Below, piece after piece: positions 1 to 48,232 of a stretch of DNA of 64,000 bases (the stretch's first letter is position 1; each line of letters opens with the position of its first letter). The stretch spans positions 1 through 64,000 of the forward strand of contig JAIENA010000052.1 in NCBI GenBank assembly GCA_019751755.1. Direction: 5' to 3'. The position numbers were made by a program, and so were the translations under genes. The notes under the pieces are model-generated. The model did not search any database. It worked only from the letters and a program-made list of their open reading frames with translations, and was not told the DNA's origin. The stretch is from Burkholderiaceae bacterium. GTDB lineage: Bacteria; Pseudomonadota; Gammaproteobacteria; Burkholderiales; Burkholderiaceae_D.

Positions 1-1431
1 ATGACGACCCTGCAAGTGAGCGGTTTGACGACCCAGCAACTGTCGGCCTCGTTTGGCACCCGGCAAGTGGCCGCGCTGCAATCGGCGCACATTGCCGCGT
101 TCAGCAGTACGCAATTCCGCGCCTTGCCGAGCGACGCGATTTCCGCCTTGAATACGTCGTCGCTGCAAGGCTTGCGCACCAATATGCTGGCCGCGCTGAC
201 CGCGCAGCAATTGGGCGGCATGACTTTGGAACAGGTGGCGGCGCTGGCCACCTGGCAAATCGGCGCCCTGAGCGCGGAAGCCTGGACCGGCCTGACGCCG
301 GACCAGATCGCTGCGCTGACCGTGGCACAGGCGCAATCGCTGCGCTTCAAGCACTTGTTCGCGCTGGCTGTCAATGGCACGCTGGGCGCGCTGGAAACCC
401 AGGATGTGGCGGTGCTGGCCACCAGCGAGCTGGCCCAGTTGGCGCCGTTCCACTTGAACTTGCTAACGGAGGAACAGATCACCGCCATGACCACGCTGCA
501 GTTCCGTGCCTTGAGTTCCACCGCGCTGACCGGCTTTAGCGGCAGCCAGATTGCCGCGATCGAGACGCGCGACCTGGCAGTGCTGCCGCTGGCCAACTTC
601 AGGCAATTCGATGAAGAGCAGATGGCGTCGCTGACGCTGGACCAAATCGCCGCCTTGCGTTCCGACCAGGTGTGTGTGTTGAATCCGCGCCAGGTGCTGT
701 CGCTGACGGCCGCGCAAATCAGCGCATTCAAGCAACCGTTCTATACCCCGGTGGTGCTGGATCTCGATGGCAACGGCATCGACACCGTGGGCGTTGACGC
801 GGGCGTGCGCTTTGATATGCAAGCGGACGGCTACCCGGTGGCGACCGGCTGGGTCGGCGGAAAGGACGGCTTGCTGACGCTGGATCGCAATGGCGACGGC
901 GCCATCACCAGCGGCGCCGAATTGTTTGGCGCCAGCACGCCATTGCAGGGCGGTGGCCAGGCGGCCAACGGTTACCAGGCCATGGCGGATCTGGACAGCA
1001 ATGCCGATGGCGCCTTGACGGCGGCCGACAGCGCGTGGCAACAGTTGCGCGTGTGGACGGACAACAACGGTGACGGTGTCAGCGAGGCGTCCGAACTGCA
1101 CACGCTGGCGTCGCTGAAGATTGCCCGCATCGGGCTCGATGCGCGCGCCACGCTGGCATCGAGCAATGGCAACATCGTTGGCCTGATGTCTTCGTACCTG
1201 CTGGAAGACGGCACCCGGCGCGACAGCGCCGACGTGTGGTTTGCCGGCCGTGCGCAGGAGTTGCCGCAAGCCGGTCTGGCCACCGGCGTGGCAAGCCTGG
1301 CGCGGGCCCTGGCCGAATATGCGCACAGCTTGCCGGCGCCGGGCACGGCGGCGCAGTCGGACGCGGAAACGCTGCGACTGCGGGCCTTGCAGTCCGATGC
1401 GGCAGCGGGCTGGCTGGCCGCGCCGAAGTAA
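1..1431 (+). CDS. Octapeptide-repeat protein, C-terminal part (probably 5'-truncated by window start), with FrpC-SPM-like Ca2+-binding module and C-terminal tail
   Basis: Octads such as [24 protein letters not shown]; then [16 protein letters not shown]...[29 protein letters not shown]...[21 protein letters not shown]. The ORF is open from base 1, inside the repeat. Confidence 0.85.
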   Translation: [476 protein letters not shown]

Positions 1432-1637
1432 GCGGCGTATCCATTGCGGCGGCGCGGAACCGATCAACGCCGCTGCAACGCTGCTTCAACCCCGGCTAAA
1501 GCGGCAGGACAGCCCGTTCTGCCGCGTTGTTCCGGGCTTTGAAAAAGCGCCGGTGCCCACTGCTCTGGGGTAGAATCCAAAGGCGTGTGCATCTTGCAAA
1601 GATGCAACTCGCGCTTTCCACATGCTCAAGCGAATCG

Positions 1638-3782: not shown

Positions 3783-3792
3783 GCAACGAGTT

Positions 3793-5154
3793 ATGCAACC
3801 AACCAAACCTTCTGCCGCCAAGGCCCGCGCGGGCGACCAAACGGAAATCGATTTCCTGCCGGACGCGGATGCCATCGAACGCAGTCCGCTGCCCCGTTAT
3901 GTGCGGCTGACGCTGCACGTGCTGGCGTTGGCCCTGTTCTCGTTCATCCTGTGGGCCAGCCTGTCCAAAGTCGAAAAAGTCGTGGTGGCGCATGGCCGCC
4001 TCGTCAATCCGCAACAGAACATCGTGGTCTCGACAATGGAAACGGCCATTGTGAAAACCATCGTGGTGCGCCCAGGGCAGGTGGTCAAGAAAGGCGAGCT
4101 GCTGGCCACGCTGGACCCGACCTTCACGCAAGCCGATGAAACCCAGTTGCGCAACCGCTTGCGCAGCCTCGATACCCAGACCGAAAGTTTGCGATCGGAA
4201 TTGGCCGGCAAGCCGATCCAGGGCCGTGGCAGCAGTGACGCCGACGTGCAATTGCAGGCGCAACTGGCCGGTGAACGGCAAGCCAATTACGAAGCGCAAA
4301 AGCTGCGCATGGAACAAAACGTCGCGCGCTTGCGGGCGGCGATTGAAACCAACCAGCGCGACCAGCAAGTGCTGGCGCAGCGCCACAAATCGCTGGCGGA
4401 AATCGAAGCCATGCAGGAACGGCTGGTGGCGGAAAACTTTGGCGCGAAGATGCAATTGCTGGAAGCGCGCGACCGCCGCCTCGAAGTCGAGCGTTCGATC
4501 GTGGTGGGCCGTAACCGCGATTTGGAAATGCAGCGCGAACTGGGCGGCGCCCAGGCCGAATTGTCGGCCTTTACCCGCAACTGGCGCCAGCGCGCACTGG
4601 AAGACTTGCTGGCCGCCACGCGCGACCGCGACGGCATCAACGAGCAACTGGCCAAGGCCGACTTGCGCAACAAGCTGGTGCAACTGACCGCACCGGCCGA
4701 CGCGGTGGTGCTGGAAATCGGCAAGATCTCGCCAGGGTCGGTGGCGCGCGGCACCGAAGCCATGTTCACCCTGGTGCCACTGAATGCGAAGCTGGAAGCG
4801 GAAGTGCAAATTGATTCGCTCGACGTCGGCAGCATCCGGCGCGGCGACCTGGTGCACGTCAAGCTGGACGCCTTCCCGTACCAGAAGCACGGCATGCTCG
4901 ACGGCAAAGTGGTCACCATCAGCGAAGACTCGTTCAAGCGCGACCAGGTCCGCCCCGGCGAAGGCACCAATGCGTATTACCTGGCCACGGTCGAATGGAG
5001 TCCGGACAGCAAGCTGCGCAAGATGGAGGGCAGCGCGCGTCTGTTGCCGGGCATGACGGTGACCGGTGAAATCGTGGTGGGCAAGCGCTCCGTGATGTCT
5101 TACCTGCTGTGGCCGCTGACCAAGGCGCTGGACGAGTCGCTGCGCGAACCATGA
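3793..5154 (+). CDS. HlyD-family T1SS periplasmic adaptor (membrane fusion protein)
   Basis: Single N-terminal TM (LTLHVLALALFSFILWASLSKVEKVVVAHGRLVNPQQNIVVS), coiled coil, C-terminal LLPGMTVTGEIVVGKRSVMSYLLWPLTKALDESLREP; directly downstream of the ABC gene. Confidence 0.95.
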   Translation: MQPTKPSAAKARAGDQTEIDFLPDADAIERSPLPRYVRLTLHVLALALFSFILWASLSKVEKVVVAHGRLVNPQQNIVVSTMETAIVKTIVVRPGQVVKKGELLATLDPTFTQADETQLRNRLRSLDTQTESLRSELAGKPIQGRGSSDADVQLQAQLAGERQANYEAQKLRMEQNVARLRAAIETNQRDQQVLAQRHKSLAEIEAMQERLVAENFGAKMQLLEARDRRLEVERSIVVGRNRDLEMQRELGGAQAELSAFTRNWRQRALEDLLAATRDRDGINEQLAKADLRNKLVQLTAPADAVVLEIGKISPGSVARGTEAMFTLVPLNAKLEAEVQIDSLDVGSIRRGDLVHVKLDAFPYQKHGMLDGKVVTISEDSFKRDQVRPGEGTNAYYLATVEWSPDSKLRKMEGSARLLPGMTVTGEIVVGKRSVMSYLLWPLTKALDESLREP

Positions 5155-7064
5155 TCGCAGGGCGTCACACGGTACTGGTGGTGGGCGCCGACAGCCAGGT
5201 CGGCGCGGCGCTGCTGGCGGGCTTGCCGTCAGCGCGCTACGACGTGGCCGGCACGTCGCGCCGGCCGCACAGCGCGGACCGCTATTTTTATGACCTGGCG
5301 CAGCCGGAGCACCAGTTGCCGCTGCACCAGTTCGATACCGTGGTGCTGTGCGCGGCGGTGTCGAACATGGCGCGCTGCGACAACGAACCGGATGTATGCC
5401 GGCGTCTCAACGTCGACCATACCTGCCGCCTGATCGGCGACGCCGTGGCGGCCGGCTGTTATGTCGTGTTCCTGTCTTCCAATACCGTGTTCGATGGCAG
5501 CCAGCCGTTTTATGCGCCGCATGATCCGGTGGCGCCGCTGAACAATTACGGCCGCTTCAAGCTGGCCGTCGAGCAGTATATTGCCGCCCTGCCGGCCGGT
5601 CCCGGTGCCGGTGCCGCCGCCGTGCTGCGCCTGTCCAAAGTCATTACCGCCGATGCGCCGTTTATCGTCAACTGGGAGCGCGCCGCCGCCGCCGGCGAAG
5701 CGGTGCGCGCCTTCAGCAACAAGCTGCTGTCACCGATCGCGCTGGAGCAGGTGGTGGCCGGCATCGCCACCATGATCGACTGGCGCCAGGATGGCCTCTA
5801 CCACTTGGCCGGTGACGAAGAATTGTCGTATGCCGATTTTGCGCGCCGCCATTTCGCGGCCGACCCCGTCAAATTGCAACTGGTCGACGCGGTGGCCGAT
5901 CCGTCGGCCCAGCGTGTCTTGCATAACTCCCTGAGGACCCATATGCCGAACCAATGCCATGCCTGCCACCAGCACGCGCTGCATCCGATCGCCGCACCGC
6001 ACACATCAAGCTCCGTCACCTCCGATTGCCGCCCGTGGCCGCATCCGATTGCGCTGGCGGTGTGCGGCGCCTGCGGCCTGGTGCAAAAGCGCAATACCCC
6101 GGAATACCGGCAGCAGTGCGACGAGATTTATCGCTCGTATGCGATTTATAAGCAAAGCGATGGCGCGGAACAGGCCGTGTTTACCGCGCAGGGCACGGAA
6201 TTCGCCCGTTCCGACCGCATCATCGACTGGCTGGAGCGCGCTACGCCGCTGGCCGGTGGTGGTGACTTGCTGGAGATCGGCTGCGGCAACGGTTCGTTCC
6301 TGCGCAAATACAGCGCGCGCCAGCCTGGCTGGCAATTGCTGGGCACCGAGTTCGACCGCAAGAACCAGCCGCTGATCGAAGCGATTCCCAATGCGGCCTT
6401 CTATTGCGGCGACCTGTCGCAACTCGAGCGCAAGTTCGACCTGATCGTCGCGATCCACCTGCTGGAACATATCTTCGACCCGTTGCAATTGCTGCGCCAA
6501 TGCGCCGAGCACTTGAACCCGGGCGGCCGCATCTTTATCCAGGTGCCGAACGTCAAGGAATCGCCGTTCGACCTGCTGATTGCCGACCACGTTTCGCATT
6601 TCTCGATTGAATCGCTGACCGCACTGTTGAACACGGCGGGCTTTGACATCCTGGCGGTGTCGGACACCAATATCGCCAAGGAATTGTCGCTGCTGGTGCA
6701 GCCGCGTCCGGCGACGCCGGCGATCGACGTGGCGCCGTGGAGCGCGCTGCTGGGCGACTACCTGGCGTTCTTTGCCGAACTGAAAAATGCCCCGTTGCCG
6801 GACGGCGCGCCGGTCGGCATCTTTGGCTCGTCGATTTCCGCCACCTGGCTGGCCAGCGAATTGGCGGGGCGCATCAGCTTCTTTGTCGATGAAGACAGCA
6901 ACCGCATCGGCAAGCAGCACATGGACTTGCCGATTGTCGGCCTGGACGGGATCCCGGCCGGCGCCACCGTGCTGCTGCCGATGAACCCGAAAATCGCGAA
7001 AGCCATCGCGGCGCGCCTGGCGCCGCGCCAGATCCAGTTTGTTTTGCCTGCCGATACCGAATAA
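5151..7064 (+). CDS. Fusion: RmlD-like SDR/epimerase + zinc-ribbon-like CxxC region + SAM-dependent C-methyltransferase
   Basis: N-terminal VLVVGADSQVGAALLAG and YGRFKLAVEQ; middle CHACHQ...CGACGLVQ; then LLEIGCGNGSFLRKY and HLLEHIFDPLQLLR. Start overlaps the HlyD stop (ATGA). Confidence 0.85.
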   Translation: MIAGRHTVLVVGADSQVGAALLAGLPSARYDVAGTSRRPHSADRYFYDLAQPEHQLPLHQFDTVVLCAAVSNMARCDNEPDVCRRLNVDHTCRLIGDAVAAGCYVVFLSSNTVFDGSQPFYAPHDPVAPLNNYGRFKLAVEQYIAALPAGPGAGAAAVLRLSKVITADAPFIVNWERAAAAGEAVRAFSNKLLSPIALEQVVAGIATMIDWRQDGLYHLAGDEELSYADFARRHFAADPVKLQLVDAVADPSAQRVLHNSLRTHMPNQCHACHQHALHPIAAPHTSSSVTSDCRPWPHPIALAVCGACGLVQKRNTPEYRQQCDEIYRSYAIYKQSDGAEQAVFTAQGTEFARSDRIIDWLERATPLAGGGDLLEIGCGNGSFLRKYSARQPGWQLLGTEFDRKNQPLIEAIPNAAFYCGDLSQLERKFDLIVAIHLLEHIFDPLQLLRQCAEHLNPGGRIFIQVPNVKESPFDLLIADHVSHFSIESLTALLNTAGFDILAVSDTNIAKELSLLVQPRPATPAIDVAPWSALLGDYLAFFAELKNAPLPDGAPVGIFGSSISATWLASELAGRISFFVDEDSNRIGKQHMDLPIVGLDGIPAGATVLLPMNPKIAKAIAARLAPRQIQFVLPADTE

Positions 7065-7080
7065 ACGAAGGAGATTTCCC

Positions 7081-8229
7081 ATGTCAGAAGTTGTGCCAGC
7101 GGCAGAACACAATCCGTACGCGGCGCTGCACGCCACCCTGGACAAAATGATGGACGATACGGTGCGCATCCCCGGCACCAAGGCCTGGATTTTGTTGTGC
7201 GGCTATGCGATCGGTGAAACCGCCGAAGTGTGCGGCTTTGCCGATGCCTTCGTCAAAGAACATGGCCACGGCATTATCCTGGTCTGCACCGAAAAGCACG
7301 CGGCGCTGGCGCGCATGTATGCGCACCGCTTCCTGAAAGTCGTGCTGGCCAGCGATGATTTAATGCGCGCCATGTTGCGCAGCAATTACATCGACCACAA
7401 CCGTTTCGAGCCCGATTACCCGCTCAGCGCCTGCTGGATCGACCGCGGCTTTGGCCAGTCGGACGGCATCAAGTACATGTGGCGCTACCCGGAGCGCGGT
7501 GGCATCAGTGAAACCGACATGATGCGCTTCGTGCTGCGCCTGCCGTGGAACGCGAAAATGGACCCGCCCGTGATCAGCGACGAGGCCCAGGAACGGGCCT
7601 GGCAACTGGGCCGCGAAGCGGGCATCCGCCTCGGCCGTTCGGTCCTGCTATGCCCGATTAATAACTCGGCCAAGAAGTTCCCCACCGTGTTCTGGGTGGC
7701 GGTGGCGGACCGCCTGAAAGAGCTGGGTTACACGGTGCTGACCAATATGGGCGGCTGGAAGCCGCACAATGGTCTGGACACGATGCCGATCCCCGGCACC
7801 ATCCCGGTGGACTTGCCGATCGATACCGTGATCCCGTTTATCCACCTGTGCGGGCGCGTGATTACCGGCACCAATGGCATGTCGTTCCTGATCATGCTGG
7901 GCGGCTTGAAGACCTTTAAAATGACGCAATTGCTGCCGACGTCGAAGGAAGTCAGCAACGAGCACTCGTCGCTGGGCTTCCGTGCACCGACTTACCAGGA
8001 TGGCTCGGCCATGATCGCGTCGTACCACTACATGTCGCCGGAACTGGTGCTGGACTCGCCGCTCAATGAATTCATGATTGCCTACGACGAATCGCCGGAA
8101 GAATTGCAGCGCCTGGGGCGCGTGGTGGCCGAGCAGGATACCAGCGACAAGGCGTCGTTCATGCGCCTGGCCGGCAATGGCCAGCCCTTTATCGAAGCGC
8201 ATGCCAAGTGGCTGCGCGATATGGTGTAA
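7081..8229 (+). CDS. Glycosyltransferase-like protein (possibly GT9/heptosyltransferase-like)
   Basis: GT-B-like C-terminal half ([39 protein letters not shown]...[13 protein letters not shown]); AAGGAG RBS upstream of ATG 7081. Confidence 0.5.
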
Positions 8230-8239
8230 GGAGCGCGCC

Positions 8240-8902
8240 ATGCTGTTCAGCGAGAGTAATCCAGGTCCGGGCATGGCCGTGTACGACGGCGCGCTGCGGC
8301 TGGCAGTGGGCGCCACCGTGGCGCGGGTCGAGTCACCCGGCCATCTGGTGCTCGACAAACACTCGGTGGTCACGCGCAGCACGCTGGGCAAGTATTTCGG
8401 CCTGGGCTGCTTTTCGTATGTGACCAATGCCGACATCGGGCGCTATTGCACATTTGGTTCGCGCGTCTCGGTGGGCGCGTTTTCGCATCCGACCGACTGG
8501 CTGTCGATCAGTGAATTCCAGTACCGCGACACCGCCAACGTGTATGGCGAGTCGATTATCGACGCGGGCGTCAACACCGCGCCGCAGCATGCGCGCACGC
8601 AAATCGGCAACGACGTCTGGATGGGCGATAACGTCTGCATCCGCCACGGCGTCACCATCGGCCATGGCGCGGTGATCGGCCTCGGCTCCGTGGTGACCAA
8701 GGATGTGCCGCCGTATGCGATCGCGGTCGGCAATCCGGCGCGCGTGTTGCGCTACCGGTTTGCCCCCGATCTGATTGAACAGTTGCTGGAATCGACGTGG
8801 TGGGAACTGGACATTCCCGACATGCAGGGCATTGATTTTGCCGACGTGCCGGCGGCACTGGCGGAAATCGGGCGGCGCAAGGCCGCCCTCGGTAAAGCGT
8901 AG
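8240..8902 (+). CDS. CatB/XAT-like hexapeptide-repeat acetyltransferase
   Basis: Left-handed beta-helix hexapeptides; [53 protein letters not shown]. Confidence 0.9.
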
Positions 8903-8912
8903 ACTTGCCGGC

Positions 8913-9968
8913 TTAATCCATCGCCACGATGCAGCGCCCGGCAAACGTCCCGGCGCGCATGCCATCGATCGCTTCATTGATCTGATCGAGCGTAAAGCGG
9001 TGCGTGATCAGGTTTTTCAACTGGATGCGTCCGGTGCGGTACAACTGGTGGTAGCGTGGGATATCCGTTTGCGGAATCGCTTCACCACCGGTGGAACCGC
9101 TCAAGCCCTTGCCGAAGTGCAGCGGCAACGAATAAATATTGATGTTGTTGCCCTTTTTCGGCACGCCCACCAGCGTCACGCGGCCTTGCGGCTTGGTGAT
9201 TTCATAGCCCATTTCAATGATCGACGGCTGGCCGGTGTTATCGATGAAGGCATCGACGCCATTCGGGCCCAGCAGGTCGATAATGGCCTGACGCGCATCC
9301 GTCGTGCTGCTGTTGATCAGGTGGGTCGCGCCCATTTCCTTGGCCAGCGCCAGCTTGCTGTCGTGTAAATCCACCGCAATGATCGGGTAGGCCGATACCA
9401 GCGCCGCCGCCTGCACGATGTTCAGGCCGATGCCGCCGGCGCCAAACACGACCACGGCTTCACCGATTTTTACCTTGGCATTGTTTTCCACCACGCCAAA
9501 ACCGGTGGTCACGGCGCAGCCGAACAGGGCCGCGACTTCCAGGTCGCTGTCGGCCGGAATCGCCGTCACGCGGTTTTCCGACACGATGGTGTATTCGCTG
9601 AACGTGGTGACCTGGCCTGCATTGATCTTTTTGCCATCCAGCGTGTAGTGGGCGGTCGTCGCTTCGATGCCGGCGCCTTTGCGCCAGTGCAGCACCACCT
9701 TGTCGCCGACTTTCACGTGGCGCACGCCGGGACCGATGTCGAGCACGGTGCCCGACGCTTCATGGCCCAGCAGGTGCGGGATGTATTTGTCTTCGCCCTT
9801 GGCGCCGTCGATTTCACCGACTTGCGACCCGCAGATCCCGCTGAAATGGACTTTGACCAGCACCTGGCCGACGTCGAGTTGGTCCGGCATGGTGACTTCG
9901 GCCACCGCCAGCGGCGCCTTCTGTTGCACCAGGATGGCCGCTTTCATGGTTTTTGGCATGACAGTCAT
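8913..9968 (-). CDS. Zinc-dependent alcohol dehydrogenase (MDR superfamily)
   Basis: GICGSQVGEIDG, LGHEASGTVLDIGPGV, VVFGAGGIGLNIVQAA. Confidence 0.9.
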   Translation of the reverse strand: MTVMPKTMKAAILVQQKAPLAVAEVTMPDQLDVGQVLVKVHFSGICGSQVGEIDGAKGEDKYIPHLLGHEASGTVLDIGPGVRHVKVGDKVVLHWRKGAGIEATTAHYTLDGKKINAGQVTTFSEYTIVSENRVTAIPADSDLEVAALFGCAVTTGFGVVENNAKVKIGEAVVVFGAGGIGLNIVQAAALVSAYPIIAVDLHDSKLALAKEMGATHLINSSTTDARQAIIDLLGPNGVDAFIDNTGQPSIIEMGYEITKPQGRVTLVGVPKKGNNINIYSLPLHFGKGLSGSTGGEAIPQTDIPRYHQLYRTGRIQLKNLITHRFTLDQINEAIDGMRAGTFAGRCIVAMD

Positions 9969-9975
9969 AGTTATC

Positions 9976-10644
9976 TCACTCGAAGTAGATCAGGGAATGG
10001 TCGCCGGTGTAGCCGGTCTGCTGGAACCACCAGTCCCACTCTTCCGGCGTGCAGAAGGCTTCGCAGGTGACTTGCCAGTACATCAGGTTGGCTTTTTCTT
10101 CTTCGTTGCGGTACGACTCCACGCACATGTACTTCTGCTTGCCGACCCGCTCCATTTCGCGCAGCGCCTTGTCGAGGTCGTAGTTGTGCAGGTTGTGCAG
10201 GGTGGTGATGGAAAACACCAGGTCGAAGTGTTTATCCGGGAACGGCAGGCTGTTGGCGTTACCCAGAATCAGGCGGTCGCGGATTTCTTCCTTGGCATTG
10301 TCCAGCGCGTACTGGGAAATATCGAGGCCGTGGATTTCCAGGCCGGGCACCAGCAGCGACATTTCATACAGCAGGAAACCCTTGCCGCAACCGACGTCGA
10401 GCACCTTGTCGCCGGCTTTTAAACCGTAATGGTCGATCATGGCTTGCGCCACCGGGGCCCAGCGGCCCGGCATGTACTTGTAGCCGCCGTAGCAAATCTT
10501 GCGGTCGCCATCCCAGTAGTCAAAGCCCCATTGCTTGGCCAGTGCGGCCGCTTTGGCTTTCGGGAAATCAGGGTCGTTGACGCGCGCCAGGTAGTCACGC
10601 GTGGTGCTTTTGTGGACCGCGGAAAGGAAGTCGATGTAAGCCAT
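9976..10644 (-). CDS. Class I SAM-dependent methyltransferase
   Basis: AGDKVLDVGCGKGFLLYEM...FDLVFSITTLHNLHNYDLDKALREMERV. Confidence 0.88.
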   Translation of the reverse strand: MAYIDFLSAVHKSTTRDYLARVNDPDFPKAKAAALAKQWGFDYWDGDRKICYGGYKYMPGRWAPVAQAMIDHYGLKAGDKVLDVGCGKGFLLYEMSLLVPGLEIHGLDISQYALDNAKEEIRDRLILGNANSLPFPDKHFDLVFSITTLHNLHNYDLDKALREMERVGKQKYMCVESYRNEEEKANLMYWQVTCEAFCTPEEWDWWFQQTGYTGDHSLIYFE

Positions 10645-26914: not shown

Positions 26915-29704
26915 TCAAGCCGCTTTCGGCTTGGTCAGCAGCAAGTTGGTGGCTTGCTTGATCATCGACTGGATCGCCTCCAGGTCGAATTTGCCGGCCC
27001 GGATTTCTTCCCGCATCGTGCCCAGGTACCACAGGCAGGTGGTCAGCTTGCTGGCCAGCTGTTCGTCGGCCGTGTGGCGGTCGTCGAAGTAATGGCCGTT
27101 TTCCAGCGCGTCGCAATACAGTTGCAGCCAATCCAGGTTGGCGCGGATGGCCTGACCGTTGCCGCGCTGGTCCTGGCCGCCGTGCAGGCGGAAATAACTG
27201 AGCGTGTCCGGCAGGTACACCGCGTCATGCTCGCGCAAGATCGCCAGCCAGGTCGCCACGTCCGACAGCACCGTGTATTGGCGGCCGCAGAACATGCCGA
27301 ACTGGCGGTCCAGCGCTTTCTTACGGATCAGCACCGTGGTGGGCTCGCCGATCAGGTTGCGCCCCCCGGTCAGCAGCAGGTGGCCGAACTGGCGGCCGCT
27401 GATGCGCGCTTCCGATTCAAACAAACGCTCGGTGCCCGGGATCGGCGCCATGTGCGCGCCGTTGGCGTCGATCAGTTGGCGGAACGACGTCACCAGGCCG
27501 ATTTTTTCATCAGTCAGCATGAACGACATCATGCGCATGATCTTGTCCGGATGGTACAGGTCGTCGTCCATCAGGAAATTGATGTACTCGCTGCGCGAAT
27601 GCTTGAAGCAATTCATCGCGTTTTCCAGCGGACCGTAGCCAGGCACCCGGTAATAACGGATTTGCGGATACTTGGCGATGTAGGGCGCGAAGCGGGCCCG
27701 GGTCAGTTCATCGTCGCTGTTGTCGCTGATGATGATCTCGATGTTCGGGTACGTCTGCTCCAGCACGCTTTTCAGTGCCAGTTCGCCATAGTCGGGGCGG
27801 TTGTGGGTCGGCAGCAGGATCGACACCAGCGGCAGGCCACTTGGCGTGATGTTGCGGTCCGGATTGACGGCAATTTCCGTGAAGCGCTGTTCCAGGTCGC
27901 GCACGAAGCGCTCGCTGTCGAACAGCGGCGTGCTGAGGCGATTCGCTTCCAGTTTCTGGTGCAGTTCGGCGGTATAGGCGCGGTCATTGCCCAGCTTGAT
28001 GGCCAGTGCTTCGTAGTCGGCGGTGGTAAACGTCACCAGTTCCGGCAGGCCGACTGCGCGCAGCAGGCTGCCCGCCATGCGCGACGAGAACGTCTTGCCG
28101 GCGCAGGTCAGCACCGGCAAGCCGGCCCACAGCGCGTCGCTGGCGGTGGTGCCGCCACCGAACGGGCTGGTGTCAAGGAACAGGTCGGCCACCTGGAAGC
28201 GCGCCAGGTAATCGGCCGGCGCGACCCGCTTGGCAAATAGCAGGCGTTCCGGGTCGACGCCGCGCACCTGCGCTTCGCGCTGCAGGTTGGTGCGCACGAT
28301 GTCGCCATCGGCCACCAGCCACAGCACCGAGTTCGGCACGTCGCGCATGATGCGCATCCAGCTGTCGAATACTTCCGGGATGATCTTGAAGGTATTGTTG
28401 AAGGCGCAGAACACATACGCGTCTTCGGGCAGCCCGCACGAGGCGCGTGTCGGCTTGACGCCGATCTGGCGCTGGCGATCGTTGATCTGGAACGTGTGCG
28501 GCATGTGCAGCGGCTTTTCAGTGAAGAAAGGCTCGAGCTCGGGCGGCATCACGAACGGGTCGGAAATCACGTAATCGATTTCCGGCAGCGCGGTCGGACC
28601 TGGCAGGCCGAGCCACGTCACCTGCACCGGCGCGGGGCGGTGCGACAAGATGTTGTGGCGGGCGTTCATGGTCAGGCCGTGCAAATCGACCAGGATGTCG
28701 ATTTCGCAGGCGCGGATCAGTTGCGCCGCTTCCAGGTCTGACAGGGCGCCGATCCGGATATGGTGGTCCATGCCGGCAATCACGCGGGCGCGCAGCGGCG
28801 AACCGTCTTCATGACTCCAGCAAAAACCGAACACTTCGAATTTGCTGCGGTCGTGCAAACCATACAGCTCGGCGGTCAGGATCGACACCGCGTGCGAGCA
28901 AAAGTCGGACGACAGGTAGCCGATGCGCAGGCGCTCGTGCTTGTAGCCGGCGGTGGCCATCGGCGCCACGCCCTTCAATACTTTTTCTTCGACATAGCGC
29001 TGCGACGCGCCGACTTGTTCGATCGGTTCCGGCGACGCGCTCAGCATCGCCAGCGCCGACGTACCGTCCAGCAGCTTGCGCTCGGAAATGCCGATGCGGG
29101 TGTCGAACACGGGCCAGTTGCACTGCTTCTGGCGCAGGTGCACCCAGTGCGTGACGACGTTGCGCTGGTCCGGTTCCAGCCGCAAGCTTTCCGCCAGCGC
29201 GGCTTCGGCTTCCGGCATGCGCTTGAGGATTTCCTGCAGGCGGCCGATATTGTTCAGCGCCTGTACGCGCAGCGCCTTGGTCGGCGGTGTGGTGGGCGGC
29301 GAAATTTCCACCGCCTTGCGCCACAGTTCCAGCGATTCTTCCGGGCGCTTCATGCGCTCGAGCAGCGTGCCCAGGTTCAGCAGCGCTTCGACGAAATTCG
29401 GGTTGGCTTTCAGCGCGGAGCGGTAGGCCGCTTCGGCCCCGGCTTCATCGGCCACCGCCAGCAGCACGGCCAGGTTGAACCAGGCCGCGTACGCCAGCGG
29501 CGAAGGCGTGTTGTCCAGCCACAGCTTGTATACATGGATGGCCTGGTCGCTTTGACCGGCTTCGGTCAGCAACTGCGCCACCTGGAACAGTTCGATGATT
29601 TGCAACATGCCAGTGGCGGCTTGCTGCATGGCGGTGTCGACCTGGGCGGTCTGTTCGTGCGTGAGCGGGGTAACGGTCGTCGGTTTGGTCATGATGGCTT
29701 TCAA
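26915..29704 (-). CDS. Multidomain glycosyltransferase: TPR + SPINDLY/OGT-type GT41 + C-terminal GT2 domain
   Basis: TPR-like N-terminus; RLRIGYLSSDFCSHAV...DILVDLHGLTMNARHNILSHRPAPVQVTWLGLPGP...FLDTSPFGGGTTASDALWAGLPVLT (OGT); then LVSILLPTHNRPDYGELALKSVLEQTYPNIEIIISDN...INFLMDDDLYHPDKI (GT2). Confidence 0.93.
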   Translation of the reverse strand: MKAIMTKPTTVTPLTHEQTAQVDTAMQQAATGMLQIIELFQVAQLLTEAGQSDQAIHVYKLWLDNTPSPLAYAAWFNLAVLLAVADEAGAEAAYRSALKANPNFVEALLNLGTLLERMKRPEESLELWRKAVEISPPTTPPTKALRVQALNNIGRLQEILKRMPEAEAALAESLRLEPDQRNVVTHWVHLRQKQCNWPVFDTRIGISERKLLDGTSALAMLSASPEPIEQVGASQRYVEEKVLKGVAPMATAGYKHERLRIGYLSSDFCSHAVSILTAELYGLHDRSKFEVFGFCWSHEDGSPLRARVIAGMDHHIRIGALSDLEAAQLIRACEIDILVDLHGLTMNARHNILSHRPAPVQVTWLGLPGPTALPEIDYVISDPFVMPPELEPFFTEKPLHMPHTFQINDRQRQIGVKPTRASCGLPEDAYVFCAFNNTFKIIPEVFDSWMRIMRDVPNSVLWLVADGDIVRTNLQREAQVRGVDPERLLFAKRVAPADYLARFQVADLFLDTSPFGGGTTASDALWAGLPVLTCAGKTFSSRMAGSLLRAVGLPELVTFTTADYEALAIKLGNDRAYTAELHQKLEANRLSTPLFDSERFVRDLEQRFTEIAVNPDRNITPSGLPLVSILLPTHNRPDYGELALKSVLEQTYPNIEIIISDNSDDELTRARFAPYIAKYPQIRYYRVPGYGPLENAMNCFKHSRSEYINFLMDDDLYHPDKIMRMMSFMLTDEKIGLVTSFRQLIDANGAHMAPIPGTERLFESEARISGRQFGHLLLTGGRNLIGEPTTVLIRKKALDRQFGMFCGRQYTVLSDVATWLAILREHDAVYLPDTLSYFRLHGGQDQRGNGQAIRANLDWLQLYCDALENGHYFDDRHTADEQLASKLTTCLWYLGTMREEIRAGKFDLEAIQSMIKQATNLLLTKPKAA

Positions 29705-38950: not shown

Positions 38951-41900
38951 TTATTTGTTGGGCACGGTCAGCCAGCCGGTTTGCGCCTGCGTCAGGCTTT
39001 GCAGGCGGTCGTGACGCTCCACCGGCGCCGCCGACAACAGCGGTGCGTGGGTGGCGAAGTCGCGCAGCGCATCGGCCATTTGCTGCACTGCCGGCGCCAT
39101 CGCGCCGCCCTGGTCCAGGGTCAGCTTCGGTGCGGCCGGGGCCGCATCTTGCGCCATCGCATAGCTCGACAGGGCGTGCGACAAGCTGCTCACTTGCGCC
39201 GACATTGGCGAGGCCGAGGTGCGGAACCAGACGTCGGCGGTGTCACCGGTGCTGCCATCGGTCCTGGTATAGCTCGACTTCAGTCCCACGATATTGCCGT
39301 GGTCGATGCTGCCATCGGTTTGCGCTGCAATCGACAGCGACGCGATGTCCAGGTTCTGCAGGGTATGCAATTCGCCGGCATCGCTGACGCCGTCGGCGTT
39401 GGCATCGATCCAGACGCGCAAGTGGCTGAAGGCTTGGTCGCGCTTGTCAATGACGCCGTCGGCGTTGCTGTCGAGCGCACCCAGGGCTTGGTAGCCATCG
39501 GTGGCGGTGCTGCCATCGGCCAGCGCGGTGTGGTCGCCGAACAGTTCGGAGCCGTCGTTGATGGTGCCGTCGTGATTGCGGTCCAGCACCAGCAAGCCAT
39601 CGTTCGCTCCGACCCAGCCGGTGGCGGTTTTCTGGCCGGCGGCATAGATGTCGAACGCCACACCTTGCTCCAGGCCGACGGTGGTGACGCCGTTGCCATC
39701 AAGGTCGAGGATCAGCGGCGAGCCGTAGTTCGACGAGCTGGCGTTGAGCGCCATGGTTTGCGCGGTCGTCATGGCCGCCACTTGCGCCACCGTGAAGGTA
39801 TTCACCTGCGCCAGGCTGAGCGCCGCCAGGTCCTCGGTTTCCAGCGCCTGGATTTGCGTGGTGGTGAACGACACGATCGCCAGCGTGCTGAGGCCGGCGG
39901 CCTGCGTGGCCGTCAGGCTGGCCACCTGTTCGGTGGTCAGCGCCTGGATTTGCGTCGCTTTCAGCGCCTGCATTTGCAGGGTGTTGAGGGCAATCCACTG
40001 GGCGATCGGCAGCGTGCTGATTTGCGTCGCCGTCAGCGCGTTGATCTGCGCGGTGGTCAGCACCGCCACCTGGGCGTTGCTCAGTTGCGCCAGTTGCGTG
40101 GCGCTCAGCACGGCGGCCTGGCTGGCTTTGAGGGCGGCGATTTGCGTCGTGGTCAGGTAGGTGATCTGCGTATCCGTCAGGTAACCGATCTGGTCGGTGC
40201 TGAGGTTGCTGATCTGCGACGTGTTCATCACCGGCACCTGCTCGCTGTTGAGCGCGCTGATCTGGTCCACCGTCCATACCGCCAGCTGCGAATTCTTCAG
40301 CGCGGCGATTTGCTGGGTGGCCAGGCTGGCGGCCTGGGTGGCCGACAGCGCGGCAATTTGCGTATTGCTCAGGCTCTGGATCTGTTGCGTCGTGAAGCTG
40401 GTCAGTTGGGTCTCCGACAGCACGCCGATTTGGTCCACCGTCAGCGACGTGATCTGGCTGGCTTTGATGGCCTTGATCTGGTCGGCCGACAAGCTCAGCA
40501 ATTGCGCGTTGGTCAGCGCCGGCAACTGGCTGGTCGACAGGTAACCGATTTGCGCGGTGGTCAGCGCGGTGATCTGGTCGGTGGTGACGACCTGCATCTG
40601 GTCGGCCGTCAGCGCCACCAGTTGCGTGCTGGTCAGCGCCGGCACCTGGTCGGTGGTCAGCGCCGGGATTTGCGTCTGTGTCAGGCTGCTGATCTGCAGC
40701 GTGGACAGGGCGGCAATCATCGTGGTGCCCAGCGCCGCCAGGTTGGACGTTGGCAGCGTGGCCAGCACACCGGCGTCGAGTGCGCGGATTTGCGTGCTCG
40801 ACAGCGCTTCCATCTGGTCGGCGCTCAGTTCGGCAAAGTTGGCGGTATCGAGCGCCGCCATTTGCAGGGTCGTGATGGCGCGCACCTGCAAGGTGGTCAG
40901 TGCGGCCACTTGCGTGTTCGACAGGCCCATCAGCAGCGTGCTGTCGAGCGAACTGATTTGCTTGGTGGTCAAGACCGCCAGGTCTGCGGTTTCCAGCGCG
41001 TTCAACTGGTCGCTCGACAGTGCATTCAATTGCGCGGTGGTCAGCGCCACCGCCTGCGCCGTGGTCAGCGCCGCCAGTTGCCCATTGCTGAAGCCGCCGG
41101 CCAGCGAGGCCGCGTTCAGGCCTGCAACCGCGGTGCTGGTCAGGGCACTGATTTGCAGCGTGGTCAAGGTGTTGAGCTGGTGCGTATCGAAGCCGCCCAG
41201 TTGGGTGCTGGTCAGCACGCCGACCTGCACCGTGTCGAGTGCCGCCAGGTGCGTATCTTGCAGCACCGACAATTGCTGCGACGTCAGGGTACGGATGGCG
41301 GCCGTGTTGAAGGCCGCCAGTTGCGTGTCCGTCAAGCCCTGCATGATCTGAGCGGTGGTCAGCGCCGCCACAGCGCGGGTGCCGAGGGCCGCCATCTGCA
41401 CGCTCGACAGCACCGAAATCTGCAGGCTGGTCATCGACGAGAATTGCAGCGTCGACAGCGCGTTCACCTGCTGTGTGCCCAAGGTCATCAACTGCTCGGT
41501 GGTGATGCCATCGGCCAGTTGTGTCAGGCTCAGGCCGGCCAGCGCGGACGTCGACAGGGCATTGACTTGCAGCGTCGTCAGCGACGACAGCAGGGTGGCG
41601 CTCAGGGTCGACATTTGCAGCGAGCTCAGCGCATACAAATCGGTGGTTTCAATCGCCGCCACCTGGGTCGCCGTCAGCGCGTCGAACTGGGCGCTGGTCA
41701 TGGCGCGGATTTGCGCCGTGGTCAGGGCGGCGATCTGGTCGCTGGTGAACCCTTCCGAAATTTGCGTGGCGGTCAGGTTCGCGATTTGTTTCGTGTTCAG
41801 CGCACTGGTCTGGTCGGTGCTCAGCGCGGCGATCTGCTCCGACGCCAGCGCCTGCAATTGGGTGGTCTTGAGCGCATTCAAGTCAACCGTTTCCAGGCCC

Positions 41901-44900
41901 ACCACCTGGTCGCTGGTCAGCGCGGCCAGTTGATCGAGGCTCAGGTTGGCCACTTGCTGCGTGGTCAAGGCACTGACCTGGTCGGACGACAGCGAAGCGA
42001 CTTGGGTGGCGTCGAGGCCGGCCACTTGCGCGGTGGTCAACAGCGCCACGCTGTCCGTCGCCAGCGACTGCACTTGCAGGGTGGTCAGGGCGGCAATTTG
42101 CGTGCTCTTCAGGGCGCGCAAGTCGAGGGTTTCCAGCGCCGCCAACTGGGCGGTGCTCATGCCGGCCACCAGTGTGGTATCCAGGGTCGACACTTGCAAG
42201 GTGGTCAGCGCCGCCACCTGGTCGCTGGTCAGGACCTGGATTTGCAGGCTGTTCAGCGCGTTCAGTTGGACCGTGCTCAGGCGCGCGATATTGTCGGTTT
42301 CCAGCGCCGCCAACTGCGCGTCCAGCAACAGCACCAGCTGGTCGTTCGACAGACCCGTGGTTTGCGCCGTGGTCAAGGCGATCACCTGGTCGCTACTCAG
42401 CGCCTGCAACTGTTCGCTGTTGAGTACATTCAACTGGGTGGAAGACAGGTAAATGATGTCGTCCGAACCCAGGCTGACCAGCTGGCTGCTGGTCAAGGCC
42501 GCCACCTGATTGGTGCGCAACGCGGCCAGGTCGTTGGACTCCAGCGCCACGATCTGGTCGGTGCCCATGGCCGCCAACTGGTCGATGGCCAGATTGGCCA
42601 CTTGCAGGGTGGTCAGCGCTTCGACCTGGCTGGTTGCCAGCAGGGCGATCTGGTCGCTGCTGAGGTAAGCCATTTGCGCCGTGGTCAGCACGGCAATGTC
42701 ATCGGCCGCGATGGCGCGCAGTTGCGTGCTGGACAGCGCTTGCAGCAGGCCCGAGTGCAGCGCCAGCACTTGTTTGGTGGTCAGCGCATCGATTTGCTCG
42801 GTGCTGAACGCGTTCATTTGGTCGCTGGCCATGGCCGCCAGCTGGCTGGTGGTCAGGTTCGGGATTTGCGCCGCGGTCAGCATGGAAATCAGGTTACTGG
42901 TCAAGACCATGGCCGGGTTGTAGGCCAGCACCGCCAGGTCTTCCGCTTCCAGTGCATTCAACTGGTCGGACGTCAGCGCCTGCAACTGGTCGGACGTCAA
43001 GGCGTTGGCCTGGAAGGTGGTCAGGGCAATGATCTGGTCGGTGGTCAGCGACGTTACTTGCGTACTCGCCATGTTGGCGATCTGCTTGGTGGTCAGCACC
43101 GCGAAGTCATCGAGCGCGATGGCGCGGATCTGTGTCGACGTCAGGCTTTGCACCTGGTCGGACGTCAGCGCGTTCAACTGGTCGGACGTCATCGATACGA
43201 TGCGTTCCGTGGACAGCGCGATCAACTGGTCCGAATTGAGCGCGCGGACTTGCAGCGTGGTCAAGGCTTGCAGTTGGTCCGGGCTCAGTCCTTCCAGCTG
43301 GAAGCTGCCCAGGTAGCCGATTTGCGTGGTGGTCAGCGCCGCCAGGTCGTCATATTCGAGCACCAGCAATTGCGCCGAGGTCAGCGCCTGCAACTGGTCG
43401 CTGGTCAGTGCGCGGATTTGTAGCGTGTTCAGCGTGATGACCTGGTCATTGCTCAGGGCCTTCACCTGCAAGGTGGTCAGCGCGGCGATCTGGTTGGTTT
43501 TCAGGATCGCAAAATCGTCCTGTTCGATGGCCGCCAGCTGGGTCGTGGTCAGCGAGGCGATTTGCAGCGTGTTCAGCGCGCGGATCTGCGCCGACGTCAG
43601 CGCGATGATCTGGTTGGTGGTCAGCGCCGCGAACTGGTCACTGTTGAGCAACGTTACCTGCAGCGACGTCAGGGCCTGGATTTGCGTATCTTGCAGCGAC
43701 ACCAGTTGCAGGGTGGACAGCGCGCCCAACTGGTTGGCGCGCAGCGTCGCCAGGTCGGCGTCTTCCATCGCGCGCAACTGGTTGGTGGTCAGCGAGGCAA
43801 TATGTTCGGTGGTCAGCGCGCCAACTTGCAGGCTGGTCAGCGAGATGATCTGGTCATTGGTCAGCGCCTGGATCTGGCTGCTGGTCAGGTAAGCCAGCGG
43901 CCCGACCCGGATCACGGCCAGGTCTTCCAGTTCGATCGCGGCAATGCCGGCGGTGGACAGGGCCGACAACTGCGTGCTGGTCAGCGACGCGAACTGCAGG
44001 GTGGTCAGCGCCACCACGTGCGCGGTATCGAGCGCTTGCGCCTGGTCGCTGGTCAGCGCCGTCACTTGCGTCGCTTTCAAGTTGGCGAAGTCGCCCACTT
44101 CCATCGCGTTCAACTGGTAGCTCGACAGCGCGGCGATTTGCGTGTTCGACAGGCTCGACACTTGCAGCGTGGTCAGGGCGATGATCTGGTCCGAATTGAA
44201 TCCCGGCAGCTGGGTGCTGTTGAAGGCCGTGACTTGCGTTGCCTTCAGGTTCTGGATCTGGTCGGTGGTCAGCGCACCGATCTGGTCGGTGGTCAGCGCG
44301 GCCAATTGCACGGTTTTCAGCGCGCCCAGGTCGTCGGTGTCAATCGCGGCAATTTGGACCGTGTTGAGTATGCTGATTTGCTTGGTGGTCAGCGCCGCCG
44401 CCTGCGCGGTATTGAAGGCGGCAATGTGCGCGGTATCGAGACCGGACACTTGCAGTGTGGTCAGGGCGGCGATCTGCGTGATTTTCAGACGCGAGAACGA
44501 CGCGGTGGAAATGCTGGCCAACTGGTCGGTGGTCAGGCCGATGATCTGGTTGGTGCTCAGCGCCATCAATTGCACCGAGTTCAGCAGACCCAATTGCTCC
44601 GTCGTCAGTGCCGAGAATTGCAGGCTGGTCAGCGCCGCCATCTGGATCGACGTCAGCGCCAGCAACTGGTCGGTGGTCAGCGACGCGATATGGTCGGTGG
44701 ACAGGCCGGTCAATTGCGCCGATTTCAGCGCGGCGACGTCATTGGTTTCCAGCGCGCGCACCTGGTCGGTATTGAACGAGGCGATCTGCAGCGTGGTCAG
44801 GGCGGCGGTCTGCTGCGTGGTCAGCGCGGCCAGCAGGCCGGCCGACAGGGTGCCGGTCTGGTACGTCGTCAGCGCGGCAATCTGGCTGGTCTTGAGCGCC

Positions 44901-47900
44901 GCAAAATCGGTGGTTTCCAGTGATCCCAGCAAGTCGGTGGTCAGCGCGGCCAGTTGGTTGGTGCGCAGGTTGGCCGCTTGCGCCGTCGTCAGTTCGACGA
45001 TGTTGGCGGCCGTGATGGCGTTCAGCTGCGCCGTGGTCAGGGCGCCGATCTGCAAGGTCGTGATGGCGCGCAGCTGGCTGCTGGACAGCGCGGTGATGCT
45101 GTCGCTGCCGAGCGCGGCCAACTGGTGGGTTTTCAGGACCGCCAGGTCGGTCGATTCCAGCGCCAGCGTCTGGTCGGACGTCAAGCTGGCGATTTGCAGC
45201 GTGGTCAGGGCGCCCGCTTGCAGGGTGGTCAGGGCCGCCACCAGCGTGGTCGACAATTTTGCGACCTGATCGGTGGTCAGCGCGGCCGCCTGCTGTGTCT
45301 TGAGGGCGGCAAAGTCTTGCGACTCCAGCACGGCCAGCTGGTCGGACGTCAGCGCCGAGACCTGGCGCGTGTTCAGGTTGGCCGCGTGCAGGGTGGTCAG
45401 CGCCACCACCTGGTCCACGGTCAGCGTCGCCATCTGCGCCGAGGTCAGGCCGGCCAGTTGCAGCGTGGTCAAGGACTGGAATTGTGTGGTGGGCAAGCCC
45501 GGCAGCGTATCGGTGCTCAGCGCCGCGATCTGTTGCGAGCGCAGCGCCCGCAAGTCGGTGGTTTCCATCGCCGCCAGTTGGTCGCTGTTAAGCGCAGCCA
45601 CCTGGCGCGTGCCCATATTGGCCACTTGCAAGGTGGTCAGGCTCACCATTTGTAGCGTGGTGATGGCGCCCACTTGCTGCGAGTTCAGCGCGTTCAGCTG
45701 GGTGCTCTTCAACACGGAGAACGTGTTGGTCGGCAACACTTCCAGTTGCGTGCTTTGCAGCGCCGCGATTTGCAGCGTGGTCAGCGCGGCGATCTGGTGC
45801 GAGCGCAGACTCAGCATTTGATCGGTGGACAGCGCCGCCACCTGAGACGAACTCAGTTGCGTCACTTGCAAGGTGTTCATGGCCGCCAGTTGCAAAGTCG
45901 GAATCAGGGCCACGGAATCGCTGGTCAGGGCCGCCAGCTGGTGCGATTTCAGGGTGGCGAAGTCATTGCTTTCCATCGCCGCCAGTTGGTCGGTGTTGAG
46001 CAGCGACACTTGCCTGGTGCTCAGTACACCCACTTGCAAGGTGGTCAGCGCCGCCACCAGGTTGGTGCCTAGCGCGCCGACCTGCACGCTGTTGAGCGCC
46101 AAGATCTGGTTGGTGCGCAGCGCGGCAAAGTCGGTCGATTCCAGCGCATTGATCTGGTCGGACGACAGCGACGCCAGTTGGCGCGTGGTGAGCGACACGG
46201 TTTGCAAGGTGGTCAGCGCGGCCAACTGGTCGGAATTCAACACCGACAGTTGCAGCGTGCTCAAGGCCGCCATCTGCAGCGAATTGAGCTGGGTGACCTG
46301 CATCGTCGACAGCGACGCGATATTGTCGGTCGACAGCGCGGCAATCTGGTTGGTCTTCAGTGCCGCCAGGCCGCTGCTGGCAAACGCGGTCAGTTGGGCG
46401 GTATCGAACGCGCTCAGTTGCAGCGTGGTCAGCGCGATGGCCTGGATTGACGTCAGCAGCGCGATCTGGCTGCTGGCCAGCGCTTGCATCTGGGCTGTGG
46501 TCAGGGTCGCGATCTGGTTGGTTTTCAGGCTGCGCAAGTCGACGCTTTCCAGCGCGTTGAGCTGGTCGCTGGTCAGCGACTGCGTCTGGCGCGTGGTCAG
46601 CGCAGCCACTTGCTGGGTATTCAACGCCACGATCTGGTCGGTGGTCAGCGTCGACAGTTGCAGCGTCGTCAGCGCGGCCAGCAACTGCGACTGCAGGCGC
46701 GTGAAGTCGGCCGTTTCCAGCGCATTGAGCTGGTCGGACGTCAGGGCCGCCAGCAGGCGGGTGCCCAGCGCATTGGCTTGCTGGCTGTTGAACGCGATGA
46801 TCTGGTCGGTGGTCAGGGCGCGCGCCTGCAGCGACGTCAGCGACGCCAGTTGCAAGGTGTTCAGCGCTGCCGCCTGGGTCGCGCCCATGCCGCTGATCGC
46901 ATCGGTGGACAGCGCGGCGGACTGGTTGGTGCGCAGCGCGGCCAGCACATTGGTCGCCAGCGCGGCCACCTGGTCGCTGGACAGGGCGCGGATCTGCTTG
47001 GAATCGAGGCCCGGGGTTTGGGTCGACTTCAGCACCGCGATGTACGAGGTGTCGAGCACCGTCAATTGCGGCGTGGTCAGGGCCGACAACTGGGTCGATT
47101 TCAGCGCGGCAAAGTCGATGGTTTCCATCGCCACCAGTTGGCTGGTCAGCAAGGACGCCAGTTGGCGCGTGGTCAGGTTGGCCGTTTGCAGCGTGCTCAG
47201 GGCTGCCACCTGGGTGCCGTCCAGCGCTTGCAGCTGGCGCGTGGTCAAGGCTTGCACTTGCTGGGTATTGAGCAAGCCCAGCTGGGTTGAGGTCAGCGTG
47301 CTGATGGTGGTGGTCGACAGCGCGGCCACTTGTTGGGTTTTCAGCGCGGCAAACGCCAGCGTGTTCAGGGACGCCAGTTGTGTCGAGCTGATACGCGCCA
47401 GTTGCAGGGTGGTCAGCGACGTCGATTGCATCGAATTGAACGTGGCCAGCTGGCTGGCGCTGAGCGCTTCCACCTGCGTCGAGTTCAACACTGCCATTTG
47501 GGTCGAGGTCAGCACCGCCAGGTCGGTCGTTTCCAGCGCGTCGACCTGCTCGCTGGTCAGTGCGAACAGTTGCTGGGTGGCCAGGGTGCGGGTTTGCAGC
47601 GTGCTCAGCGCGGCAACATGGGTGTCGTCGAGGTTGCGGATCTGGTTTGCCGTCAGGCCGGCCAGCGCTTGTGTGTTGATCGCGCCAAAGTCGGCGGCGT
47701 CCATCGCGTTCAATTGCGCCGTCGTCAGCGCGGCCACCTGGCGCGACGACAACGCCGCAGCCTGTTGCGTGGTCAAGCCGGCCAGGTTGGTGTCGCTGAT
47801 GGCGCTCAACTGCTTGGTGGTCAGCGCATTGATCTGGCGCGTGCCAAATCCGGCAATGTCGGTCGCATCGAGTTGGGACACCTGGTAGGTGGACAGTGCG

Positions 47901-48232
47901 CCGATCTGTAGTGAGGTCAGCGCGTTCAACTGCGCGCTGTCAAAGCCTTCGGTAAACTGGCTGGGCGACAGCGCGGCAACTTGGTTGGTGCCCAGCGCGG
48001 CGATCTGCGTTGACGAGAAACCGCCGAGCTGCGTCGTGCTCAGCGTCTGGATGCCCGCCGTCGTCATCGATTTCAGCGTGGTGCTGTTAATGGCCCGCAA
48101 TTGTGCTGTGTTCAGCACTTGCACCTGGTCGGTGGTCAACGACGCAATGTCCAGTGTGCCCCAGATGGATACCTGGGCCGTGGTCAACGCGGCAATTTGG
48201 GTCGTGGTAAAGGTCGTGACGATCGAGGCCAT
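38951..48232 (-). CDS. Giant (3093 aa) octapeptide-repeat protein with C-terminal FrpC-SPM-like Ca2+-binding module; predicted T1SS substrate
   Basis: Uninterrupted ORF starting [20 protein letters not shown] with AGGAG RBS (ctgttaggagataaaatATG). About 350 octads, then [16 protein letters not shown]...[38 protein letters not shown]...[21 protein letters not shown]. Confidence 0.93.
   Translation of the reverse strand: [3093 protein letters not shown]
39745..48208 (-). repeat. Tandem 24-bp coding repeat (octapeptide [STN][TS]xQ[IVL]x[AS]L), about 350 diverged copies with 7/10-unit superstructure
   Basis: Direct octad parsing of the translation; register holds nearly throughout, apart from five nonamer units. 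Confidence 0.95.

Follow-up and report, generated by a model that had tools for sequence, protein, structure and literature searches.

The 64,000-nucleotide stretch of Burkholderiaceae bacterium DNA analysed here (contig JAIENA010000052.1; hereafter, the window) encodes on its minus strand a giant protein, P0001, most of which is a tandem array of octapeptide units (octads). Acidic octads recur along this protein at spacings of 7, 10 or 17 octads, and the sequence has a higher-order period of 136 amino acids. Both features are very probably best explained by the chain forming a screw that bears charged stripes and completes one turn about every 3.4 octads. The elements of P0001 on which this interpretation is built are the following.

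38951-48232, minus strand: P0001, an open reading frame of 3093 amino acids comprising the octad-repeat region and an FrpC-like C-terminal domain; its length is the same in two Pseudoduganella orthologues.
39746-48232, minus strand: the octad array, 353 tandem octads with the consensus T-[TS]-x-Q-[LIV]-A-A-L, matched by Pfam PF20080 (ALTTAQ_rpt) in 98 stretches.
41600-47870, minus strand: the core, in which acidic marker octads (E-x-x-D) are spaced by 7, 10 or 17 octads, as indicated by autocorrelation and octad spacing.
41090-41749, minus strand: four of the five insertions, each making the octad a 9-mer ending in -G-[FIL], at 154-230 degrees from the acidic stripe.
47942-47944, minus strand: the fifth single-residue insertion, also turning an octad into a 9-mer within 154-230 degrees of the acidic stripe.

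The 353 octads span residues 1-2829 of P0001 and are interrupted by just five single-residue insertions. By position, the consensus is T/S, T/S, a variable residue, Q (271 of the 353 octads), L/I/V, A, A and L (291 of 353). The PF20080 hidden Markov model (HMM) scores 1354 bits on P0001 against a gathering cut-off of 26.4 (E-value about 0); the repeat itself is ALTTAQ, whereas the Pfam model is a 38-residue profile that contains no higher-order rule. No RTX family, with its nonapeptide repeats (GGxGxDxUx), is present among the Pfam matches of P0001. The protein has a predicted isoelectric point of 4.2, contains no Cys, and is rich in Ser and Thr (24% combined).

A preliminary description of this DNA proposed that a period of 17 octads (136 amino acids, 408 bp) is superimposed on the octad repeat and that acidic octads are distributed accordingly. 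Autocorrelation bears this out: over the whole 3093-residue protein, the global maximum is at a lag of 136 (identity 0.352), followed by lags of 56 (0.341) and 80 (0.323), with identities of 0.24-0.31 at the remaining multiples of 8 and a composition expectation of 0.108; within 41600-47870, identity at lag 136 reaches 0.442. At the octad level, identity is maximal at lag 17 (0.425), compared with at most 0.368 in 500 octad shuffles. Asp occupies position 4 in 30 octads, which are non-randomly placed: nearly all successive spacings are 7, 10, 17 or 27 octads. Lag 17 separates 16 pairs of these octads, whereas 5000 random draws gave a mean of 2.4 and at most 9; lag 7 separates 11 pairs. The seven marker Asp codons listed previously are located exactly as given (low bases 46130, 45962, 45554, 45314, 45146, 44906 and 44738) and belong to octads 87, 94, 111, 121, 128, 138 and 145, and the degenerate marker PTNTFSVL is indeed octad 104; it fills the +10 position that was skipped after octad 94, and a Lys octad still comes after it. 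The interval 41600-47870 holds for the period but not for the end points of the repeat region, given that the array reaches about 39746-48232; the acidic marker fades beyond octad 274. Similarly, the count of 17 octads stands but 136 residues (408 bp) is not the preserved unit: because the five insertions leave the counts of 7, 10, 17 and 27 undisturbed, what is preserved is the number of octads rather than of residues.

Fourier analysis of P0001, indexed by octad, gives a main peak at 0.294 cycles per octad, that is, 3.401 octads per turn, and does so alike for the acidic markers, for Lys/Arg at position 1, and for all residues pooled. Taken separately, the two halves of the protein each show the peak for both the acidic marker and Lys/Arg, and the pooled-residue peak persists after exclusion of positions 1 and 4, the marker octads and the octads directly after these. 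Further peaks at 0.412, 0.118, 0.176 and 0.47 are the aliased harmonics 2f-5f of 0.294; a period of 17 by itself would not require k=5 to be the strongest component. When the 26 E/D-x-x-D markers are projected at 0.294 turn per octad, they fall together over nearly the whole of P0001 (R=0.91), with Lys/Arg at position 1 of the next octad located at 113 degrees, and D3 at 268 degrees. A rotation of 0.294 with an arc of 0.08-0.10 turn has first-return times of exactly 7, 10 and 17, and therefore pitch and stripe width together account for the 7/10 rule noticed previously. Across 27 proteins, single-residue insertions cluster at 150-210 degrees and short octads of 6 residues at 240-300 degrees, some of these being copies inherited through duplication.

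The same step is found in numerous homologues. ALTTAQ genes were gathered at three taxonomic levels: the repeat was present in 68 of 75 genomes from the genus of the window, in 5 of 150 from the order and in 28 of 399 from the phylum. Spectra were surveyed for 62 proteins, non-redundant and each at least 100 octads long. The global spectral peak lies at 0.285-0.305 cycles per octad in 44 of the 62, where about 3 are expected by chance; a manual count assigns the peaks of 14 of the 18 others to aliased harmonics of this step. The super-repeat units vary among these proteins, namely, 17 octads (5 turns), 24 (7 turns), 27 (8 turns) and 31 (9 turns), all near whole turns, and yet the angular step remains within 3.37-3.44 octads per turn. 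Alphaproteobacterial relatives also comply: Cereibacter sphaeroides 2.4.1 (3.407 octads per turn), Rhodovastum (3.390), Rhizobium lusitanum (3.390) and Niveispirillum (3.431). Several proteins (L011 at 2362-10605, L054, L060-L062, L073, L075 and L077) have a 17-octad unit of 134 rather than 136 amino acids, in which a single octad lacks two residues; the shortened octads fall on one face of the predicted screw. The f87 family (L044-L046 and L088-L094) displays a strong two-octad (16-residue) alternation on top of the 3.4 periodicity.

Contacts between turns were sought by covariation of octads i and i+d, with octad i paired with same-phase octads of other super-repeats as a phase-matched null. 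The excess mutual information is maximal at d=3 (positions 5>4, 5>1 and 2>7) and d=4 (6>1 and 6>4). Directly adjacent octads (d=1) also give a signal, and the excess is smaller at d=2, 5 and 6 in most clades. The +3/+4 signal recurs in the genus of the window, in other beta- and gammaproteobacterial members and in the f84/f91 group, and in f87 the pairs 2>7 at +3 and 6>1 at +4 are visible. Judging from these alignments, the +3 and +4 offsets appear to mark the contacts expected with 3.4 octads per turn. Fourier sampling once per octad cannot tell 0.294 from 0.706 turn per octad, so that a turn made of about 1.42 octads, or 11 residues, or another packing that samples the same phases, would produce the same spectrum; the covariation, being largest at +3/+4 and low at +2, argues against this alias, and octads with helices of 5-6 residues have no space for 11 residues per turn, which makes such a geometry very unlikely.

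When genome contigs were scanned with the P0001 sequence alone, just two close orthologues emerged: one in Pseudoduganella ginsengisoli, with 80% identity, and one in P. rivuli, with 71%. Both have identical architecture and neighbours conserved on both sides. There is no gap in either comparison across residues 1-3041; the marker Asp is identical in 26 of 26 cases in both, whereas position 3 of the marker octads is only 31-38% identical. Codon identity within P0001 at lag 17 is 0.578; the expected value is 0.529, off-period lags give about 0.54, and orthologues compared with one another reach 0.67. With silent-site identity barely above background and below the orthologue level, P0001 is old and length-constrained; the 17-octad unit may represent its ancient route of growth. 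A recent or active 17-octad amplification of P0001 is excluded by codon identity and by the gap-free orthologues. The paralogue L010 (939-8012) from the same genome consists of near-identical 27-octad (218-residue) units with 78% octad identity at lag 27, and L053 has 86% identity at this lag; the sequences of these paralogues indicate recent amplification in near-whole-turn units, 27 octads being about 8 turns.

These data bear on the choice between a structural rule and a 17-octad amplification unit that the preliminary description had left open. If the 136-residue period were a mere record of DNA amplification, with 7 and 10 as accidents of the founding unit, the large units of the paralogues and the slight excess of codon identity at lag 17 would be accounted for. 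We nevertheless consider this very unlikely: the units differ between proteins but the step does not, a founding accident predicts no phase-matched +3/+4 covariation in four clades, and the copies within P0001 retain nearly no silent-site memory, and orthologues have kept its length unchanged. A structural rule explains the data better because the same step of about 0.294 turn per octad is seen across units of 17, 24, 27 and 31 octads, with predicted contacts at +3/+4; of the two options, active amplification in P0001 is the one to be abandoned.

Modelling of three super-repeats, a check suggested at the outset, was carried out with AlphaFold2 on the following segment.

44102-45325, minus strand: a 408-residue segment (residues 970-1377 of P0001) comprising three 17-octad super-repeats, modelled with a mean predicted local distance difference test (pLDDT) score of 95.1 and a predicted template modelling (pTM) score of 0.80.

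The model contains one short helix, of 5-6 residues, in nearly each octad, and a segment from a distant clade that lacks the same marker arrangement also yields one helix per octad (pLDDT 95.1, pTM 0.82). A leucine-rich-repeat (LRR)-like beta/alpha solenoid with about 24-27 residues per coil is suggested by weak HMM matches to Pfam LRR_EndoS (3.5e-10) and several LRR chains in the PDB, but seems most improbable given that the two models, with pLDDT of 95, contain zero strands, the top PDB sequence match is the octad protein HeliScrew4 rather than an LRR, and the octad period is unbroken.

Several observations weigh against the screw interpretation or qualify it. The figure of 3.4 octads per turn derives from sequence periodicity rather than from model coordinates, so that the pitch in three dimensions is an extrapolation; helix-length variation in the AlphaFold model, in which a 3.4-unit periodicity was sought, had no significant period, and the input alignments consisted largely of register-shifted copies. 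Foldseek searches of viral and PDB libraries retrieved no close solved fold, the best being mesothelin with a template modelling (TM) score of 0.2-0.3. Part of the phase coherence of each protein could stem from old duplications, and the even-offset covariation in f87 is contaminated by the strong two-octad alternation. The 3.4 step does not hold for L042, L091, L093, L095 and the Pseudomonas asturiensis protein. In particular, L042 (genome G131) has regular 12-residue units and a 15-octad period outside the 3.4 rule, and may have a kink or a different packing, whereas the Pseudomonas asturiensis plasmid gene (L101, 9458-16749) is spread over three frames with a period of about 22 octads and is possibly a pseudogene or an assembly error. 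As for export of the putative rod, no type I secretion gene lies directly beside P0001, the nearest found being about 34 kb away.

Under the proposed mechanism, each of the 353 octads would form one short helix with a T-x-x-Q capping box, and the helices would wind into a solenoid, or screw, with a non-integer turn of about 3.4 octads (about 27 residues). Octad i would pack against octads i+3 and i+4 one turn further on, resembling an alpha-helix one level up. The acidic octads (E1 and D4), together with the Lys/Arg octad next after each, would be confined to narrow stripes running lengthwise; at 0.294 turn per octad, a stripe spanning about 30-40 degrees would be revisited only after 7, 10 or 17 octads, hence the 7/10 order and the 136-residue period. 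Duplications would persist only when they keep the register, that is, when they are near whole turns (17 octads for 5 turns, 24 for 7, 27 for 8 and 31 for 9). The stripes might serve as lateral-contact, cation-binding or register sites. Assuming a rise of roughly 1 nm per turn, about 104 turns would yield a rod of roughly 0.1 micrometre.

The remainder of P0001 and its genomic neighbourhood include the following elements.

39227-39718, minus strand: C-terminal domain homologous to the FrpC Ca-binding self-processing module (PDB 6SJW/6SJX), with Ser replacing Asp before the conserved Pro.
1-1431, plus strand: a second ALTTAQ protein of 476 amino acids, truncated by the contig start, with an FrpC-like C-terminus (from sequence).
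1527-3782, plus strand: ABC transporter with a C39-like N-terminal domain (type I secretion), adjoining the second ALTTAQ protein (from sequence).
3661-5154, plus strand: HlyD-family membrane-fusion protein (type I secretion; from sequence).
26915-29704, minus strand: protein combining TPR, GT41 (O-GlcNAc-transferase-like) and GT2 domains; GT41 is found near ALTTAQ genes in other clades too.

Residues 2839-3002 of P0001 are homologous to the FrpC module (E=7e-40), the self-processing mechanism of which has been described (PMC7078468). The FrpC module has a scissile Asp-Pro bond, whereas Ser or Thr precedes the conserved Pro in 34 of 34 ALTTAQ proteins with a detected FrpC-like junction, Ser-Pro in P0001 (loci: the window, L010, L011, L038, L039, L043 and L052-L087). 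Since the scissile Asp is lost, Ca-dependent self-cleavage or clip-and-link processing is not expected and, judging by homology, the module is likelier to be a Ca-folded cap than a linker that cleaves itself. ABC and HlyD genes of type I secretion adjoin ALTTAQ genes at 1-5154 of the window, in C. sphaeroides 2.4.1, in relatives from family f87 and in many other members of the genus; by extension, P0001 itself is probably secreted by a type I system and located at the surface or outside the cell. On plasmid pA of C. sphaeroides 2.4.1, a tractable laboratory strain (L100, 6382-13092), an ALTTAQ gene annotated 'ICE nucleation protein' (WP_011836189.1) lies beside genes for an O-GlcNAc-transferase-like protein, a peptidase-domain ABC transporter and HlyD.

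GT41 genes are located near ALTTAQ genes in unrelated clades (the window, L039, L040, L042, L048, L082, L087, L100-L102 and L104, hosts including Cereibacter, Rhodovastum, Niveispirillum and Pseudomonas asturiensis). Their proximity to Ser/Thr-rich ALTTAQ proteins suggests glycosylation of the latter, and they possibly form a cognate glycosylation system. As an addition to the screw geometry rather than a competitor, the stripes might be glycosylation or lateral-assembly registers, with a Ser/Thr-rich screw modified by GT41 before or during type I secretion into an extracellular layer. The high Ser+Thr content of P0001 fits this idea, which we regard as tentative and rather doubtful: GT41 is present at just 12 of 70 loci within the flanks examined (a raw count), and glycan genes are commonly nearby in such islands.

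A literature search on ALTTAQ, PF20080, HeliScrew and octapeptide-repeat solenoids found nothing relevant, nor was any description of the non-integer pitch, the stripes or the 7/10 rule found there. These proteins likely constitute a natural class of non-integer solenoids, with octad helix units at about 3.4 per turn, surface return times of 7, 10, 17, 24 and 27, and amplification limited to near-whole-turn units. The sequences of this large, barely studied family, whose giant members from across Proteobacteria share the 3.4-octad rule, indicate a non-integer screw that would align surface positions over about 100 turns, would explain the super-repeats of 17, 24, 27 or 31 octads and would yield design rules for long rigid rods. 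Its members, currently annotated as hypothetical or, wrongly on the present reading, as 'heme utilization protein' or 'ICE nucleation protein', can be hypothesized to form secreted, possibly glycosylated filaments.

Among known systems, ice-nucleation proteins (the annotation in Cereibacter) are rejected on the octad consensus TTAQVAAL, the helical prediction for relatives and the lack of the beta-solenoid octapeptide/16-mer repeat AGYGSTxT that characterises ice-nucleation proteins. The best Foldseek matches are ARM/HEAT-type alpha-solenoids, such as mesothelin, a right-handed solenoid of 24 short helices (PMC10035497). Proteins of the mesothelin type have two or three helices per repeat in irregular units of 27-37 residues, without an octad repeat or a non-integer rule. 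Membership of P0001 in the ARM/HEAT class is rejected by query-normalised TM scores of 0.1-0.3 against a threshold of 0.5 and by the non-integer 3.4 helices per turn derived from sequence. The closest solved sequence is HeliScrew4 (PDB 9ZEM, 120 amino acids; octad L-T-P-E-Q-I-A-A), with which P0001 aligns gap-free over about 105 residues (E=1e-26, alignment profile), although 9ZEM is absent among the Foldseek matches listed (library entries to April 2026). By name and sequence, HeliScrew4 is probably designed, and the name suggests a helical screw; through this entry, the octad fold itself is probably already known. In contrast to P0001, HeliScrew4 is short and near-uniform, with Pro at position 2 and without the acidic-marker stripe. 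TPR, HEAT and LRR solenoids are usually described as having an integral number of secondary-structure elements in each turn. The closest parallel in principle is the coiled coil: residues of an alpha-helix follow a 3-4-7-11 spacing, and in heptads and hendecads, with about 3.6 units per turn, each 7th or 11th residue is on one face, whereas here, with 3.4 units per turn, it is each 7th or 10th; the coiled-coil rule acts on residues of a helix, and that of P0001 on octads of a solenoid.

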